This document shows positions 23,264 to 32,703 of a stretch of DNA of 50,176 nt, piece by piece. The DNA lies in assembly GCA_026989145.1 (NCBI GenBank), contig JALSJU010000091.1, forward strand, positions 1-50,176. Reading direction: 5' to 3'. Both the position numbers and the translations under genes were made by a program. Under the pieces are notes generated by a model. That model had not been told where the DNA came from and did not search any database. It was given only the letters and a program-made list of their open reading frames with translations. Source of the stretch: Thiotrichaceae bacterium. Lineage in GTDB: Bacteria; Pseudomonadota; Gammaproteobacteria; Thiotrichales; Thiotrichaceae. The first letter of the stretch is position 1. Each line of letters opens with the position of its first letter.

Positions 23264-24584
23264 CCGTAGCTCTTTAAACCCTGCATTACTTTTAGAAAAA
23301 CTCAAGTCGTTATCACCGTTTAGAAAATACCTTGTCGCTTTTAGTGGCGGTATGGATTCTCACGTTTTATTGCATTTATTATCAAAGTTAAAGCAACAAA
23401 ACTCTTATTTGTCACTACGTGCCGTGCATATTCATCATGGTTTGCAAAAGGTTGCTGATTGTTGGCCTGAGCATTGCCAAAGTATTTGTGATGATTTAGG
23501 TATTCCGCTTGAAATACATTATTTGGATTTAAACCTTGAGTCAGGCGATAGCATCGAGGCTGTTGCGCGACAAGGACGCTATCAAGCATTTCAAAGCATT
23601 ATACAGAAGGGTGAAGTTTTACTAACTGCTCACCATCAGCGTGATCAGGCCGAAACCTTATTATTACAACTTTTTAGAGGTGCAGGGGTTCAGGGTTTGG
23701 CCGCTATGCCTGTTATTATGGATTCTAACAATAGCGTGCATATTCGTCCCTTGTTGGATGAAAGTTATCAATCGTTACAAGCTTATGCTGTTGAAAATAA
23801 GCTTAATTTTATTGAAGATCCAAGTAATCAAAACAATAGTTTTGACCGTAACTTTTTGCGTAACCAAGTGTTGCCAAAACTTAGAGATCATTGGCAGGGT
23901 TTAGATAAAACACTTAGTCGAGCTGCCAAAATCCAGTCAGAAACAAAGACTTTGCTTGATCAAATGGCAGAAGCGTTACGGGTTAATTGTGCTGAATATT
24001 CAAATGTGAATATGGTTAGTAACACTTTATCTGTTGATTGTTTGTTGAGCTTACCGAGAGATAAGCAAAAGCTATTAATTCGCTATTGGATAACGAAGAA
24101 AGGGTTTTTAGCACCTTCAGAAAAAAAGCTAAAGACAGTGCTTAATGATATTTTGCTGGCAAAAGAGGATGCTCAGCCGCTAGTTACATGGCAAGGTGTT
24201 GAAATCAGGCGTTTTAATTATCAGCTTTATTGTGATGCGCCTTTAACAGAACATGATAATACGCAAAGGCTAAGCTGGGATGGACTAACGCCAGTGGTCA
24301 TTGATTCTTTAGGTATCACAATAAAGCCTGCTGTTTTGGCTAGTGTTCAATGTTACAATGAGCCGCTTAGCATTCGTTTCCGCCAAGGTGGGGAGTCGCT
24401 GCTTTTGGCGAAAATGGCAAAGAATAACAAAAACAAAACCTTAAAAAAGTATCTTAATGAAGCAGGGGTGCCGCCTTGGTTGCGTGATAGGTTGCCGTTG
24501 ATTTATTGTGGTGAGAGTTTGATTAAGGTTGTCATGTTACAAGACGTTAGTGTCTTGCAACATGAGAAAAACAAAACTATTTAA
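23244..24584 (+). CDS. tilS: tRNA(Ile)-lysidine synthase
   Basis: TilS attaches lysine to the wobble cytidine of the CAU-anticodon tRNA-Ile, switching it from Met to Ile decoding. The PP-loop ATP motif is SGGMDS (34-39); [27 protein letters not shown] and [19 protein letters not shown] (split pieces) follow. The C-terminal TilS domains ([27 protein letters not shown]) are complete, 446 residues in all. It overlaps accA at its start and metG tail to tail by eight bases. Confidence 0.95.
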
Positions 24585-26697
24585 CACGCATTCCTGCTAA
24601 AGCACCATCATCAGGGGTAAGTACAAACAAGTCCTCACCACCAGGGCCTGCCGCAAGTACCATGCCTTCGGACATGCCAAAGCGCATTTTACGGGGTGCT
24701 AGATTCGCCACCATTACTGTCATCTTCCCTTCTAATTCTTTCGGGTCGTAAGCAGATTTAATACCTGCAAAAACATTGCGTTGTTCCTCGCCATTCTCAG
24801 TATCTTCGCCTAATGCAAGGGTGAGTTGTAAGAGTTTATCTGCACCTTCAACATGCTCAGCCTTAATAATTTTAACTACGCGCAAGTCAATTTTTGCAAA
24901 GTCGTCATACTCAATGGTTGGGCTGATTGGGTCTTGCGCAAGTTGTGTGTCATCACTCTTTTGATTACTGGTATTTTTACTTGTTGCGGTTTTTGATTGT
25001 AAAGTTGCGGCCTCGGTTAATAAGACTTTGTTTGCTTCTAGCATCGCATTGACTTTATCTTCTTCAATTCGAGTCATTAAAGGCTTAAACTTATTAATGT
25101 CCGTTCCTAATAGCGGTGCCGCAACACTATCCCATTGTAATTCACCGGCATTTAAAAATGCTTCGGATTTTTCAGCTAGTTCGGGTAAAACCGGTTTTAA
25201 ATAGGTTATCAATGCGCGAAACATATTTAAGCCCTGCGAACAAATCGCTTGAACTTCAGGTAGCGTAGTCTCATCTTTGGCTAATACCCACGGTTGCTTC
25301 TCATCCACATATTGGTTAGCAAGATCGGCTAGTGCCATGATCTCACGCATCGCTTTACTGTAACGTCGACTTTCATAGGCATCTGCAATAGAATCACTGG
25401 CACTGATAAATTCTTGGTAAAGCGTCTCATCTGCCAGTGAATCAGACAATTTCCCATCAAACTTTTTGCTAATAAATCCGGCGCAACGAGAAGCGATATT
25501 AACCACTTTGCCGACTAAATCACTATTAATGCGTTGCTGAAAATCTTCTAGATTCAGGTCAATGTCATCGACCGTGTTACTTAGCTTAGCGGCATAATAA
25601 TAACGCAGTGGCTCGGCAGGCAAGTGATCCAAAAACACCCGCGCGGTGATGAATGTTCCGCGAGATTTTGACATTTTCTGGCCGTTGACATTTAAAAAGC
25701 CATGACAGAAAACCGCTGTAGGTAATCTAAAGTTGGCGGACTTAAGCACTGCTGGCCAAAATAGGGTGTGGAAATAGGCGATATCTTTACCGATAAAGTG
25801 GTATAGCTCGGTTTTTTCTTCTGCGCCTGCTGCCCAATAATCATCAAAGTTAATGTCGGGGTTCTTATTACAATAGTCTTTAAATGAGGCGATGTAGCCA
25901 ATAGGTGCATCTAACCAGACATAAAAGTATTTATCTTCGGTGTCGGGTATTTTAAAGCCCCAGTATGGTGCGTCGCGTGAAATATCCCAATCATTAAGTC
26001 CGCCGTCTAGCCACTCATTCATTTTATTGGCAATTTCTTTTTGAACGGTGCGATTTCCTTCATGGCTTCCATTTACCCATCCTTTTAAAAATTCAGCAAA
26101 GTCACTGACTTTAAAAAAGTAGTGCTCACTGTCTTTTTCAATCGGGGTTGCACCTGATACTACGGAGTAAGGGTTGTTTAATTCGGTGGTGGAATAGGTC
26201 GCTCCACACGATTCACAGTTGTCGCCGTATTGATCGTTTGCACCACATTTAGGGCAATCGCCTTTTACAAAGCGGTCTGGCAGAAACATATTGGCTTCTG
26301 GGTCGTAGGATTGTTTAACGACTTTAGTGGTAATATTACCGTTGGCTTTTGCTGCAAGATAAATCTGCTCCGCAAAGTGTTTGTTCTCTTCAGAATGGGT
26401 GGTATGAAAATTATCATATGAAATCAAAAAATCGTTAAAGTCCGTCTCATGTTCTGCCTTCATGTTGTCGATTAGTTGTTGTGGCTCGATACTTTCTTGT
26501 TGCGCGCGTAACATTATCGGTGTGCCGTGGGCATCATCTGCCCAAGCAAAAATACAAGAGTGCCCACGCAAACGCTGAAAACGTGCCCAAATATCTGTTT
26601 GGATATACTCAACCATATGGCCTAGATGAATCGGGCCATTAGCATAGGGAAGGGCGCTGGTGATTAAAATTTTACGGGGTGTTGCAGCGTGGCTCAT
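24577..26697 (-). CDS. metG: methionyl-tRNA synthetase
   Basis: MetG charges tRNA-Met. The HIGH motif appears as HLGH (24-27), the zinc knuckle as [17 protein letters not shown], and KMSKS as [10 protein letters not shown]. The C-terminal tRNA-binding (Arc1p-like) domain is fused ([20 protein letters not shown]), as in other dimeric MetG proteins; the linker before it is Ser/Thr/Gln-rich. I chose ATG 26697 (706 aa), which gives the family-like [21 protein letters not shown] (21 residues, shown as two parts elsewhere); TTG at 26763 would add 22 unconserved residues. Neither start has a clear ribosome-binding site. Confidence 0.95.
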
Positions 26698-26825
26698 AAT
26701 GAAAATATCAATTGTATTTAAAAAGGGTAAATTAACATACTTCCAATACTCTTGCTGATTCAAGTTATCGTTTTTTATAAAAAAACGTTAAGCTTCGTGT
26801 TCTCTAAATAAATGTCTGCTTTTTT

Positions 26826-27350
26826 ATGGAAAACCCTCGTCTTATTTACCGTGTAATTTTGAAAATTCTTGCACTAGGCGCTTTTTTATTATTACTTTGG
26901 GTAATGACACGCTCGTTATTTGTAGGCTCAAGTCAAAGCGAACCTGAAAACTCCAAACAGCAAGTGCAATTGATTACAGTAGATATAAGCACTATGCGAA
27001 AAGGAGAGATTAAGAAAGCCCGTTGGCAAGGTGTTGAGGTTGCCGTTTTATACAGAAAAGCATTTATTGCACAGCAAGTCCAGTCCGCTACTCAGCCGAT
27101 GCAAGCTATTAATAAGTCGGCTTCACGCTCATTTAAAGCAAATTACTTTGTTTATATCAATAAGGGTGATTCGGGTAATTGTCCCTTGTTTTATTCAGAT
27201 GATACATTTAAGGATATATGTAGTGGCACCTTATTTGATAGTGCAGGGCGTAAAATTAATGATCAGAAAAATCCTATTAATCTAAAGATTCCTCCACATT
27301 ATTTTGTGGAGGAAAAATTAGTCATTGGAAAGTGGGCTAATACACCGTAG
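26826..27350 (+). CDS. Rieske-like membrane-anchored protein lacking Fe-S ligands
   Basis: A 174-residue protein with one N-terminal membrane segment (about 7-33) and a periplasmic domain that aligns by eye to the Rieske subunit of cytochrome bc1. VDISTMRKGEIKKARWQG (52-69) matches the first beta strands; RSFKANYFVYI (101-111) precedes box 1; DICSGTLFDSAGR (130-142) matches box 2; and NLKIPPHYFVEEKLVIG (152-168) matches the closing strands. The four cluster ligands are gone: Gly114, Ser116, Asp130 and Ser133 stand where Cys, His, Cys and His belong. The two cysteines that form the Rieske disulfide remain (Cys119, Cys132). It probably keeps the fold but cannot bind [2Fe-2S] in the usual way. 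It diverges from metG. Confidence 0.75.
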   Translation: MENPRLIYRVILKILALGAFLLLLWVMTRSLFVGSSQSEPENSKQQVQLITVDISTMRKGEIKKARWQGVEVAVLYRKAFIAQQVQSATQPMQAINKSASRSFKANYFVYINKGDSGNCPLFYSDDTFKDICSGTLFDSAGRKINDQKNPINLKIPPHYFVEEKLVIGKWANTP

Positions 27351-27806: not shown

Positions 27807-28676
27807 ATGAGTATGGTTTTTAGAGTACAGCAATTAGCAGTTTCGGCATCTTTGCTATTTTTATTAACGGCTTGTGGTGGTGGAAGCGGTGGCGATGGTA
27901 ATACTGACTCCGTTACGGATACTGATGGGAAAATCAAAGGTAAAACGATCGCTTCAATCGTTGAGGCATCGGGTATTTGCTATTCTGCTGCTAATGATGC
28001 TTTGTTTGTGGTTTCCGACAAAGGTATTGTTTATAAGTTGGATATGCAGGGCAATATTTTAGCTCAGCATATGCATAAGTCTGCAAAAGGTAAGAAGTAT
28101 GATTACGAAGGTATTGCCTGTGATGATGCTAACGGTAATGTTATCGTAGCTGTTGAGGGTAAGGATAATCTACATACGATTGAGCAGAGTAATCTTTCAG
28201 CTTTGTATAAAAATAGTGCAGGAAAGCCAACGGGTGATATCGTAAGGCCAGACAATGATACTTTGTTCAAGGATGAGAAAGGCAAGACGGGTATTGAAGG
28301 TATCTCTATTAAAGAGGGTACGGTATATATCTCAAATCAGTCATTAAATCAGTACCCTGAAAAAGATTCATCATTTGTTTTTACGGTGGATGATAGTTCT
28401 GCTGATGCTCCTGTGGTTGATCAAGTTATAGATCATGGTAAAAAAGACATTGTAGGTTTAAGTTTTTATCAAGGTGACTTGTTTATGATTAGTGCAACAG
28501 ATCATGCTTTGATTCGTTATAGCCTTGAGCAGCCAAAAGTTTTAAGTACGAAAATGTTGCCTAGTGGCGTTGATGCCGAAGGTGTTGCTTTTGATAATGC
28601 CGGAAATATTTACTTTGCAGATGATAAAAATGGCAAGGTCTATCAGTATAAGGTTGCGGATTTTAATATTAATTAA
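27807..28676 (+). CDS. SdiA-regulated-type beta-propeller lipoprotein
   Basis: A lipoprotein whose signal peptide ends in the lipobox LTAC (Cys22-23 region) followed by a Gly/Asp-rich linker. The rest is a beta-propeller of the YjiK/SdiA-regulated type, with repeats such as VEASGICYSAANDALFVVSD, YDYEGIACDDANGNVIVAVEG, GIEGISIKEGTVYIS and GVDAEGVAFDNAGNIYFADD. Proteins of this family lie in the periplasm or at the outer membrane; their function is poorly known. It is followed by a clear terminator, so it ends its transcript. Confidence 0.82.
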   Translation: MSMVFRVQQLAVSASLLFLLTACGGGSGGDGNTDSVTDTDGKIKGKTIASIVEASGICYSAANDALFVVSDKGIVYKLDMQGNILAQHMHKSAKGKKYDYEGIACDDANGNVIVAVEGKDNLHTIEQSNLSALYKNSAGKPTGDIVRPDNDTLFKDEKGKTGIEGISIKEGTVYISNQSLNQYPEKDSSFVFTVDDSSADAPVVDQVIDHGKKDIVGLSFYQGDLFMISATDHALIRYSLEQPKVLSTKMLPSGVDAEGVAFDNAGNIYFADDKNGKVYQYKVADFNIN

Positions 28677-28787: not shown

Positions 28788-29507
28788 ATGTATGCTTTTT
28801 GTATGTCTGATTCTTCTTTTTTCAAAAGTAAACCTCAACAATGGTGGCATATTTGGTCGTGCTCTCGTTGTGACGGTGGTAAGGATAATAAGCTAGATAA
28901 GAGTGACGAGACTCGTGCAAAAATTCTCATGGCAGCATTTGATGAGATTTATCACCGTGGTTTTCAAGCGGCTAGTTTGAATAATATCTTGAAAAATACG
29001 GATATTACGAAAGGCGCATTATATCACCACTTCAAAAATAAAATGGAGCTGGGTTATGCCGTAGTGGATGAAATTATCTATACCACATTACGTGCAAATT
29101 GGATTGAGCCTTTACAAAATACCGATGATCCTGTCGCGATCATTCGAGAAATATTGTTAATTTCGGGTGAAAAAATGACTGATGAAGATGTGCGTTTGGG
29201 ATGTCCGCTAAACAATCTGGCTTTAGAAATGTCACCCATAGATGAAGGTTTTCGTACACGAATTACAGCTATTTATACCGAATGGCAAGAAGCCGTTGAA
29301 CAAGCTTGTGAGTGCGGTAAACAGGCTGGCAATATTAGACAAAATACAGATTCAAAACAACTCGGCGTGCTTTTTGTGGCGACCTTAGAAGGTTGTTTAG
29401 GTCTAGCTAAAAGTACCCAAAGTTTAGAAACACTCATGATGTGTGGGCAAGGTTTAGTCCAGCAATTAGAATTATTAAAGCCCGAAACAAGGAATAGGAA
29501 TGATTAA
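28788..29507 (+). CDS. TetR family transcriptional regulator of the RND operon
   Basis: A one-component repressor. The helix-turn-helix domain is at about 42-88 (TRAKILMAAFDEIYHRGF, then ITKGALYHHFKNKMELGYAV) and the C-terminal ligand-binding domain follows, with FRTRITAIYTEWQEAVEQA. About 40 residues precede the domain, rich in Trp and with a CSRC pair, which is unusual for the family; ATG 28803 is a possible later start, and neither start has a clear ribosome-binding site. A dyad just upstream suggests autoregulation. The next gene overlaps its stop by eight bases, so it is co-expressed with the RND exporter and probably controls it. Confidence 0.88.
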   Translation: MYAFCMSDSSFFKSKPQQWWHIWSCSRCDGGKDNKLDKSDETRAKILMAAFDEIYHRGFQAASLNNILKNTDITKGALYHHFKNKMELGYAVVDEIIYTTLRANWIEPLQNTDDPVAIIREILLISGEKMTDEDVRLGCPLNNLALEMSPIDEGFRTRITAIYTEWQEAVEQACECGKQAGNIRQNTDSKQLGVLFVATLEGCLGLAKSTQSLETLMMCGQGLVQQLELLKPETRNRND

Positions 29508-31854
29508 AAGTTACGCTAATTTTGTAGTCAGATACCGATGGATAATATTAGTTTTAATGTTACTGATTGTCGCGGGATCAGGCATGGGTGCCAAGAATTT
29601 ATTTTTCAATAATGATTATCGTATTTTCTTTAATAAAGATGATGCGCGCTTGAAAGCTTTTGAAAACATCCAAGACACCTATACTAAAAATGATAATGTA
29701 TTAATGGTTTTTGCACCCAAAGATGGCAAAGTTTTTACGCCAAAATATTTGGCTGCCATTGAGGATATTACCGAGCGTGCATGGCAAACACCGTATTCTA
29801 TTCGTGTTGATTCGCTATCGAACTATCAACACAGTGAATCGGTTGAGGATGATATGTCGGTGGCTAACTTGTATGAAAATGGTGCCTCCCTTGGTAGCGA
29901 TGAATTACAGCGTATTAAAAAAATCGCCTTAAACGAACCGTTACTAGTGCACCGTTTAATTTCGGAAAAAGCGCATGTTTCTGCGGTTAATATTACTGTT
30001 GAATTACCTAAAACACTCACTGACGAAAAGGGCGTTGTAACAAAGGCTGATCCAACGAAATTAGTGACTGAAATTGTTGCATCGGTACGTGACTTAAAAG
30101 CCTATGTTGAGAAAACATACCCTGAACTAACCGTGTATTTATCTGGCATTGTGATGATGAATAATGCGTTTGGCGAGGCAACTATTTATGATATGTCACA
30201 CCTTTTACCGATTACCTTATTGTTGATCTTGGTGACGGTGTTTTTATTGTTACGCAGCGTTTCGGGAACTATTATCACTTTAGTGGTTATTATATTTTCA
30301 CTTGCAACAGCCTTTGGTTTAACCGGTTGGTTAGGGATTGAATTATCTTCCCCCGTGATGTCATCACCGATTATTATTATGACGCTGGCAGTGGCTGACT
30401 GCGTGCATATTTTATCTAATTGGGTTGCGCAGATGCGTAAAGGCTCGGATAAATATGAAGCGATGCGCGAAAGCTTACGGATTAACTTTATTCCGGTGTT
30501 CTTAACCTCTATTACTACAGCAATTGGTTTCTTATCGCTAAACACCAGTGATGCGCCTCCCTTTAGAGACTTGGGCAATGTGGCAGCAATTGGTGTGATG
30601 GCGGCATTTTTCTTTTCTATTTTCTTATTACCTGCATTAGCTACTGTGCTTCCCAGTCGTGTTAAACAACAAGATGAGACAAAAACACTTAAGTTGATGG
30701 CATCTTTAGCTGAATGGGTTATTACGCATAAAAAGGCTTTGTTAGTTAGTATTGGAGGGCTCGCATTGGTATTGATTGCACTCATTCCACGTAATGAGTT
30801 AAACGATGTTTTTGTTAAGTACTTTGACAAACGTATTGAGTTTCGCGCCGATACTGATTTTATCAGTGATAATTTAACCGGTATTTATAATATAGAATAT
30901 TCCATCGAAACCAAAAATTCAGGCGATATTGCTAATCCACAAGTGCTTGCTGATATCAAAAAGTTTACCGATTGGATGTCTGAGCAACCTGAAGTGATTC
31001 ACGTCAACACGGTGACAGATACCTTTACTCGACTGAATAAAAACATGCACGGTGATGATCCTAACTATCATAAATTGCCAGAGAGTAGGGAACTGGCGGC
31101 ACAATATTTATTGCTTTATGAAATGTCGCTACCGTTTGGTTTAGATTTGAACAATCAAATTGATATTGATAAGAAAAGCACTCGTATTACGGTGACTATG
31201 AAAACACTGTCATCCAAAGAAGTATTGGCGATAGAAAGCCGTGCCGATCAATGGATGAGCGATAATATCCCCGAATTAAAAGCAGTAGGCGTTAGCCCAA
31301 CCGTGATGTTCGCACATATTGGCATGAAAAATATTATAAGTATGTTGAGTGGTACGACAATTGCATTGGTATTGATTTCGTTAATTCTTATGTTTGCGTT
31401 AGGCTCATGGCGTTATGGTTTATTAAGCTTAATTCCCAATTTGATACCTGCGGGAATGGCATTTGGTGTATGGGCGATAATTGATGGTGAGATAGGCATG
31501 GCATTATCAGTAGTGACTGCAATGACATTAGGAATCGTGGTGGATGATACGATTCACTTTTTAAGCAAATATCGCCGTGCCAGAGTCGAGCAAGGGATGG
31601 CGGCAGAAGATGCGGTACGTTATGCCTTTTCTACGGTAGGAATCGCATTACTTGTAACATCTGTCGCTTTGATTGCTGGCTTTTTAGTTTTAGCGACGTC
31701 ATCATTTAAACTCAACTCAGGGATGGGATTATTAACAGCAATTGTTATTGCCATTGCTTTATTGGTTGATTTTTTATTATTACCTCCGTTGTTGATTTGG
31801 TGGGATAAATGGTTGAATAAAGGTAGTCGGTTAGCGGTTGAACAAATTAAATAA
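29500..31854 (+). CDS. RND superfamily exporter (MMPL type)
   Basis: A large inner-membrane transporter of 784 residues with the duplicated RND layout: membrane helix (about 13-31), periplasmic loop, five helices including LLPITLLLILVTVFLLL and AVADCVHILSNWV, then the same again with MTLGIVVDDTIHFLSKYRRA. It belongs to the MMPL/COG1033 group that moves lipids, hopanoids or other hydrophobic molecules, not to the drug-efflux HAE1 group. AGGAATAGGA precedes the ATG inside the tetR end. A LolA-like protein follows, the usual partner for such exporters, which points to transport of a lipid-like substrate across the envelope. Confidence 0.9.
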   Translation: MIKSYANFVVRYRWIILVLMLLIVAGSGMGAKNLFFNNDYRIFFNKDDARLKAFENIQDTYTKNDNVLMVFAPKDGKVFTPKYLAAIEDITERAWQTPYSIRVDSLSNYQHSESVEDDMSVANLYENGASLGSDELQRIKKIALNEPLLVHRLISEKAHVSAVNITVELPKTLTDEKGVVTKADPTKLVTEIVASVRDLKAYVEKTYPELTVYLSGIVMMNNAFGEATIYDMSHLLPITLLLILVTVFLLLRSVSGTIITLVVIIFSLATAFGLTGWLGIELSSPVMSSPIIIMTLAVADCVHILSNWVAQMRKGSDKYEAMRESLRINFIPVFLTSITTAIGFLSLNTSDAPPFRDLGNVAAIGVMAAFFFSIFLLPALATVLPSRVKQQDETKTLKLMASLAEWVITHKKALLVSIGGLALVLIALIPRNELNDVFVKYFDKRIEFRADTDFISDNLTGIYNIEYSIETKNSGDIANPQVLADIKKFTDWMSEQPEVIHVNTVTDTFTRLNKNMHGDDPNYHKLPESRELAAQYLLLYEMSLPFGLDLNNQIDIDKKSTRITVTMKTLSSKEVLAIESRADQWMSDNIPELKAVGVSPTVMFAHIGMKNIISMLSGTTIALVLISLILMFALGSWRYGLLSLIPNLIPAGMAFGVWAIIDGEIGMALSVVTAMTLGIVVDDTIHFLSKYRRARVEQGMAAEDAVRYAFSTVGIALLVTSVALIAGFLVLATSSFKLNSGMGLLTAIVIAIALLVDFLLLPPLLIWWDKWLNKGSRLAVEQIK

Positions 31855-31899
31855 AATCCTGTCTTACAGGTGGTTAAACAAAATAAATTGGAGAAAAAA

Positions 31900-32703
31900 A
31901 TGTTATTTAAACAAACCTTATCATTTTCATTAGCGGTTGCTTTTTTAGGCTTGTCATTTACTGCCCAAGCAAAAGCACCGGTAGAAAACGCACAGCAAAA
32001 AGGCTTGCGAATCGCTAAAGAAGGAGATGCCAAAGACATAGGTTTTGGCGATACAACGGCGAATATGATTATGACGTTAAAGAATCGTGCTGGTAAAACA
32101 AGCCGTCGCGTGATTAGCATTAAAACCCTGGAAGGTAAGGGGGATGGTGATAAATCGTTATCTTTATTTAATCAGCCTGCAGACGTTAAAGGCACAGCCA
32201 TGTTGACCTTTTCGCACGGTTTAAAGCCCGATGATCAGTGGTTATATTTACCGGCACTAAAGCGCGTAAAACGAATCAACTCACGAAATAAATCAGGTCC
32301 GTTCATGGGCAGTGAATTTGCTTTTGAAGATTTAGGTTCTCAAGAAGTTGAGAAATACAAATACAACTATTTACGCGAAGAAGCCTGTGGTCAAGGCTGG
32401 AAGTGTCATGTGATTGAACGAACACCCGCGTATAAATATTCGGGGTATAGTAAGCAAATTTCATGGATTGATACTAAAGAATATCGTCCTGTGAAGGTAA
32501 TGTATTACGATCGTAAAAATGCTTTATTGAAAACACTTAATGCAACAGGTTTTAAACAGTATTTAGGTAAATACTGGCGACCTAGTATGATGAGTATGGT
32601 AAATCATCAAACAGGCAAAAGCACCACGTTACAATGGTCTAACTATAAATTTAAGTCTGGCTTATCGGCACGTGACTTTAATAAAAATGCATTGGCAAGA
32701 TAG
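31900..32703 (+). CDS. outer-membrane lipoprotein-sorting (LolA-like) protein
   Basis: A periplasmic protein of 267 residues with a signal peptide (MLFKQTLSF to SFTAQAKA) and the LolA-like domain typical of proteins annotated as outer membrane lipoprotein-sorting protein. Family motifs visible are PADVKGTAMLTFSHG, DDQWLYLPALKRVKRI and GPFMGSEFAFEDLG. These proteins are regularly encoded beside MMPL-type exporters and may carry the exported lipid through the periplasm. I chose ATG 31900, six bases after GGAG (31890-31893); an upstream GTG at 31870 would spoil the signal peptide. Confidence 0.87.
   Translation: MLFKQTLSFSLAVAFLGLSFTAQAKAPVENAQQKGLRIAKEGDAKDIGFGDTTANMIMTLKNRAGKTSRRVISIKTLEGKGDGDKSLSLFNQPADVKGTAMLTFSHGLKPDDQWLYLPALKRVKRINSRNKSGPFMGSEFAFEDLGSQEVEKYKYNYLREEACGQGWKCHVIERTPAYKYSGYSKQISWIDTKEYRPVKVMYYDRKNALLKTLNATGFKQYLGKYWRPSMMSMVNHQTGKSTTLQWSNYKFKSGLSARDFNKNALAR

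Follow-up and report, generated by a model that had tools for sequence, protein, structure and literature searches.

A gene in the window analysed here (the whole 50,176 nt stretch of the Thiotrichaceae bacterium contig JALSJU010000091.1) codes for a membrane protein with the fold of the cytochrome bc1 Rieske subunit, PetA, in which all four [2Fe-2S] ligand positions are replaced (Gly114, Ser116, Asp130 and Ser133). It belongs to a clusterless family spread over Gammaproteobacteria. The identity of this family, its fold, the loss of the cluster and the action of selection, taken jointly, are in our view established with very high confidence, while a structural, non-redox role of the protein is probable. 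The open reading frame delimited in a first-pass annotation of this DNA was recovered at the same position (Table 1), and its product is predicted to be a single-helix membrane protein with the N-terminus inside and a Rieske head in the periplasm.

Table 1. Features of the clusterless Rieske-like gene and its divergent neighbour, in window coordinates.
Feature	Coordinates	Strand	Remarks
Clusterless Rieske-like membrane protein gene	26826..27350	+	174 aa; start matches ortholog N-termini
N-terminal membrane anchor, helix residues 4-32	26835..26921	+	AlphaFold2 helix; N-terminus predicted inside by charge
Periplasmic Rieske-fold head, residues 50-168 (predicted)	26973..27329	+	TIGR01416 match, AlphaFold2 model, Foldseek, VIA
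Box 1 remnant G114-D-S116-G-N-C119-P-L	27165..27188	+	Gly and Ser in place of the C-x-H ligands
Box 2 remnant D130-I-C132-S133-G	27213..27227	+	Asp and Ser in place of the ligand Cys and His
Cys119, disulfide half-cystine	27180..27182	+	Invariant, 53/53
Cys132, disulfide half-cystine	27219..27221	+	Invariant, 53/53
metG, divergent neighbour	24577..26763	-	Adjacency specific to the window's genus

The window protein matches the NCBIfam model of the proteobacterial bc1 Rieske subunit, TIGR01416, over residues 37-168 (47.8 bits, E=1.6e-12), with a score below the curated cut-off of 97.4 bits. A Pfam search with this protein gave no significant match; neither Pfam nor NCBIfam has a family that fits it better than TIGR01416. 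When solved structures were searched with the single sequence, bc1 Rieske chains ranked first (E=1.2e-5). A family profile of 25 sequences matches T. tepidum PetA at 4.9e-26 and the P. aeruginosa bc1 Rieske protein at 4.4e-25; 24 of 25 family members match TIGR01416, and none of 25 matches NirD / Rieske_2 (PF13806) at E<=1.

AlphaFold2, supplied with the family alignment, modelled the window protein with a pLDDT of 87.9. All 50 matches listed by Foldseek for this model are bc1-type Rieske chains (best E=1.1e-7), and VIA-align superposes it on T. tepidum PetA (TtPetA, 7yr9) with Z 14.5 and rmsd 2.4 over 114 residues and on bovine 1rie with Z 13.3 and rmsd 2.6 over 109 residues. For a distant Ectothiorhodospira member, modelled with a pLDDT of 89.3, the fit to TtPetA 7yr9 reaches Z 24.1 and rmsd 1.9 over 145 residues. 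The strong profile and fold matches rule out a chance resemblance: the kinship of the clusterless family with bc1 Rieske proteins is real, and the alignment made by eye in the first-pass annotation is borne out by profile search, structure prediction and superposition alike.

In TtPetA the ligands are C124, H126, C152 and H155, and the disulfide is C129-C154 (PMC10492824). These residues correspond to G114, S116, D130 and S133 and to C119-C132 of the window protein, so that the positions assigned earlier to the lost ligands and the retained cysteines are correct. The comparison was extended to an alignment of 111 rows, which holds 58 true Rieske proteins and 53 distinct family members. Since the ligand motifs served to sort the rows into these sets, C/H/C/H at the four positions in 58/58 true Rieske proteins follows from the sorting, and the informative observations are the bimodality and the replacement residues of the family. 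No ligand residue is found across the 53 members save one His in sequence L105, probably an alignment slip. The four positions are mostly occupied by G/A/S, S/D/A, D/E and S/R/T, respectively. Arg133 always occurs together with Asp116 (13/13, in mutually related rows), which suggests a salt bridge at the site of the two His ligands.

Both disulfide cysteines are present in 53/53 family members and 58/58 true Rieske proteins, and the bond between them presumably forms in the family as well. No other cysteine is invariant, and most members contain just these two. With all ligands missing and no spare conserved cysteines, the family cannot carry out electron transfer of the Rieske type, and whatever the protein does must depend on its fold, on the disulfide or on the refilled pocket. 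It had been proposed that exactly the ligands were lost and the disulfide kept. Ligand loss and disulfide retention stand, but "exactly" goes slightly too far, as the family also lost the Pro loop motif over the cluster (0/53 in the family vs 45/58 in true Rieske proteins) and, for the most part, the Tat-like RR motif.

The latter was detected, by a motif test only, in 7/53 family members vs 48/58 true Rieske proteins, and the window protein has no twin arginine at its N-terminus. The anchor is more hydrophobic in the family (median 2.52) than in true Rieske proteins (1.83; p=4e-17), and the positive-inside charge pattern of 48/53 members points to the N-in topology. Two true Rieske proteins of family f31 (L091 and L093) begin with MEENRRHLL and MEEDRRQLL, with a segment ahead of the anchor that is unusually short.

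In the GTDB order of the window, 33 of 63 genomes gave matches; 29 were counted as carriers, which fall in six of the eight genera, and the remaining matches are true Rieske proteins. Of 369 genomes sampled across the class, 20 or more have a clusterless member; this is a minimum, since the matches were not all inspected. The 53 distinct members span at least 11 GTDB families of Gammaproteobacteria (f1, f20, f49, f57, f106, f126, f127, f131, f145, f151 and f155 have clusterless members). Named carriers include Granulosicoccaceae and Ectothiorhodospira mobilis, E. haloalkaliphila and E. marina, Ectothiorhodospira being a cultured genus. Matches listed by a plasmid search were annotated petA or had no annotation. 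The replacements are conserved in orthologs beside metG, within the same genus, and far beyond it.

In a maximum-likelihood tree of the 111 rows a single branch parts the family from true Rieske proteins (support 100/99, present in 200/200 bootstrap trees); the tree lacks an outgroup, so that the family forms a clade only with the root on the true-Rieske side, and its bootstrap had not fully settled. With the same proviso, this single branch lends no support to several independent ligand losses. Most simply, the cluster was lost once, early in Gammaproteobacteria. dN/dS is 0.11-0.23 in five pairs, of which the closer ones give 0.12-0.23 and the pair with the window protein has dS near saturation. 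The family is under purifying selection. Together with the 53 members sharing one pattern and separated from true Rieske proteins by one split, this rules out a decaying pseudogene, for which nothing more than the ligand loss itself could be cited; that reading, like chance resemblance, has a negligible probability.

A recurrent locus is found across many gammaproteobacterial families (L034-L073 and L138-L145): a divergent DUF423 gene, the clusterless gene, rsmJ (mostly convergent) and hprA, often with cyaY nearby. DUF423-gene-rsmJ-hprA is the ancestral locus. In the window the neighbours are metG and a TetR-MMPL group instead, and of the loci compared only those of the window's genus have metG next to the gene. 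The downstream genes for a TetR regulator, an MMPL-type transporter and a LolA-like protein (28788-32703) are also conserved beside the gene in this genus. A putative lipoprotein gene, SdiA-regulated or phytase-like, lies between the gene and tetR (27807-28676); the loci of the relatives compared did not show it as a conserved neighbour. Genome context does not reveal the function: synteny with DUF423, rsmJ, hprA and cyaY looks vertical, and the genes are divergent or convergent, with no operon. Literature on DUF423/TMEM256 function offered nothing useful for the role of the gene, and in no locus seen was it a member of a petABC operon.

These observations show a PetA paralogue that lost its [2Fe-2S] cluster and was then kept by purifying selection as a stand-alone gene. 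Its periplasmic head would be held by the retained C119-C132 disulfide, and the empty pocket would be filled by Asp/Glu130 together with the D116-R133 salt bridge or, in the window's own family, with small polar Ser/Thr. Having no cofactor to load, the protein could dispense with Tat export and be inserted in the ordinary way by a hydrophobic signal anchor. No electrons would be carried through a cluster; most likely the protein binds a partner at the periplasmic face of the membrane. By ancestry the likeliest single partner would be bc1, with the protein serving as an accessory, assembly or placeholder subunit. As a whole, this explanation is the best available, and we give it somewhat less than an even chance. 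The earlier proposal that the stable fold has taken on some new task outside redox chemistry is supported by the dN/dS of 0.11-0.23.

The choice of bc1 as partner is possible, though we would not expect it to be right. The same genome has a normal bc1 operon on another contig (C19), with a true petA, cytochrome b and c1. This complete petA rules out that the clusterless protein replaces the true Rieske subunit. Docking to cytochrome b in the true-Rieske manner is probably not retained, because the tip leucine and the Pro loop, which contact cytochrome b in true Rieske proteins, are altered in the family. Cytochrome b was found in 18/20 carrier genomes vs 292/369 (79%) overall in the class sample, an association that is not significant (Fisher p=0.27) and gives no ground for bc1 dependence. 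Genome G192 (95% complete) has the gene, while cytochrome b, c1 and a true Rieske protein were not found in it; it may be a true exception or reflect an assembly gap. No cytochrome b match was obtained in G248 (86%) and G021 (98%) either. In another genome, G324 (locus L042), cytochrome b (PF00032) is encoded three times, and the Rieske profile gives four matches. Among the tests run, nothing ties the protein specifically to bc1.

The changed docking surfaces (Pro loop in 0/53 members), the solitary position of the gene, the case of G192 and the co-occurrence result would suit a structural or scaffold role with some other periplasmic or membrane partner, such as another oxidase, a c-type cytochrome or an envelope complex, bc1 being then only the ancestry. 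However, no other partner is indicated; the neighbours rsmJ, hprA, DUF423 and metG share no common theme and look like vertical synteny. We consider this alternative somewhat unlikely.

The emptied pocket could also bind a small molecule or a metal through a conserved acid and nearby residues. Position 130, occupied by a ligand Cys in true Rieske proteins, is Asp or Glu in 50/53 members, which speaks for such binding. However, no other family-specific His, Cys or acid is conserved in more than 60% of members, box 1 is variable (S, D or A at position 116), and on a simpler view the backbone hydrogen bonds formerly made to the cluster are now taken up by the acid. Binding in the pocket is improbable. 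About as improbable is a disulfide switch, with C119-C132, which no cluster adjoins any more, acting as a reversible thiol redox sensor or an oxidoreductase site. In its favour, these are the only invariant cysteines of proteins that mostly have no others, but the same disulfide is structural in true Rieske proteins, and the two cysteines lie on separate loops, 13 positions apart, unlike a CxxC-type active site.

With partner binding by a clusterless PetA paralogue as the preferred reading, the family can be compared with known systems. It shares with the bc1 Rieske subunit (PetA, TIGR01416, PF00355) the fold, the single N-terminal anchor, the disulfide cysteines, a conserved Trp67, the DxxGR and PP motifs and, in distant members, the linker YDPxSxxSxQP. 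It differs in having neither cluster ligands nor the Pro loop, in a Tat-like motif that is mostly lost, in a more hydrophobic anchor, and in a gene that lies outside petABC and is additional to a true petA. The closest solved structure, Zn-bound immature TtPetA (PDB 7yr9), is likewise a folded Rieske head without [2Fe-2S] and demonstrates that a Rieske cluster site can take its form with no cluster present (PMC10492824). Unlike the family, it represents an ordinary Rieske protein, complete in its ligands, at one stage of maturation, whereas both ligand cysteines that hold Zn are missing from the family. NirD-type small subunits, another Rieske-type line with ligand residues lost, provide a partial precedent. 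NirD is soluble and cytoplasmic. In B. bataviensis NirD one Cys and one His ligand are substituted (PMC3475470); unlike the clusterless family, NirD is a nitrite reductase subunit on a different Rieske branch, to which no match was found.

No description of the clusterless family was found in Pfam, NCBIfam or the open-access papers searched, and its novelty, already suspected in the first-pass annotation, holds within these sources. It may be an ancient, undescribed family in which a duplicated bc1 Rieske subunit was stripped of its cluster and now serves one of the respiratory membrane complexes as a dedicated partner without a redox function; were that complex bc1, the protein would occupy or regulate a Rieske site, either as an accessory subunit or as a placeholder during assembly. 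We hold this fuller version to be rather doubtful.

Rieske proteins are defined by their cluster, and a ligand-free family that selection has kept in at least 11 gammaproteobacterial families shows that the scaffold alone is useful. The family also offers a natural test that separates features serving the cluster (ligands, Pro loop, Tat export) from those serving the fold (disulfide, conserved Trp, DxxGR). It is at the same time an annotation trap, as sequence searches reach it under the name of ubiquinol-cytochrome c reductase iron-sulfur subunit. If it does act on bc1, it would be an unrecognised component of a textbook respiratory complex, in cultured purple sulfur bacteria among others. 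Overall, it seems that a protein which once carried electrons was put to a job that involves no electron carrying.
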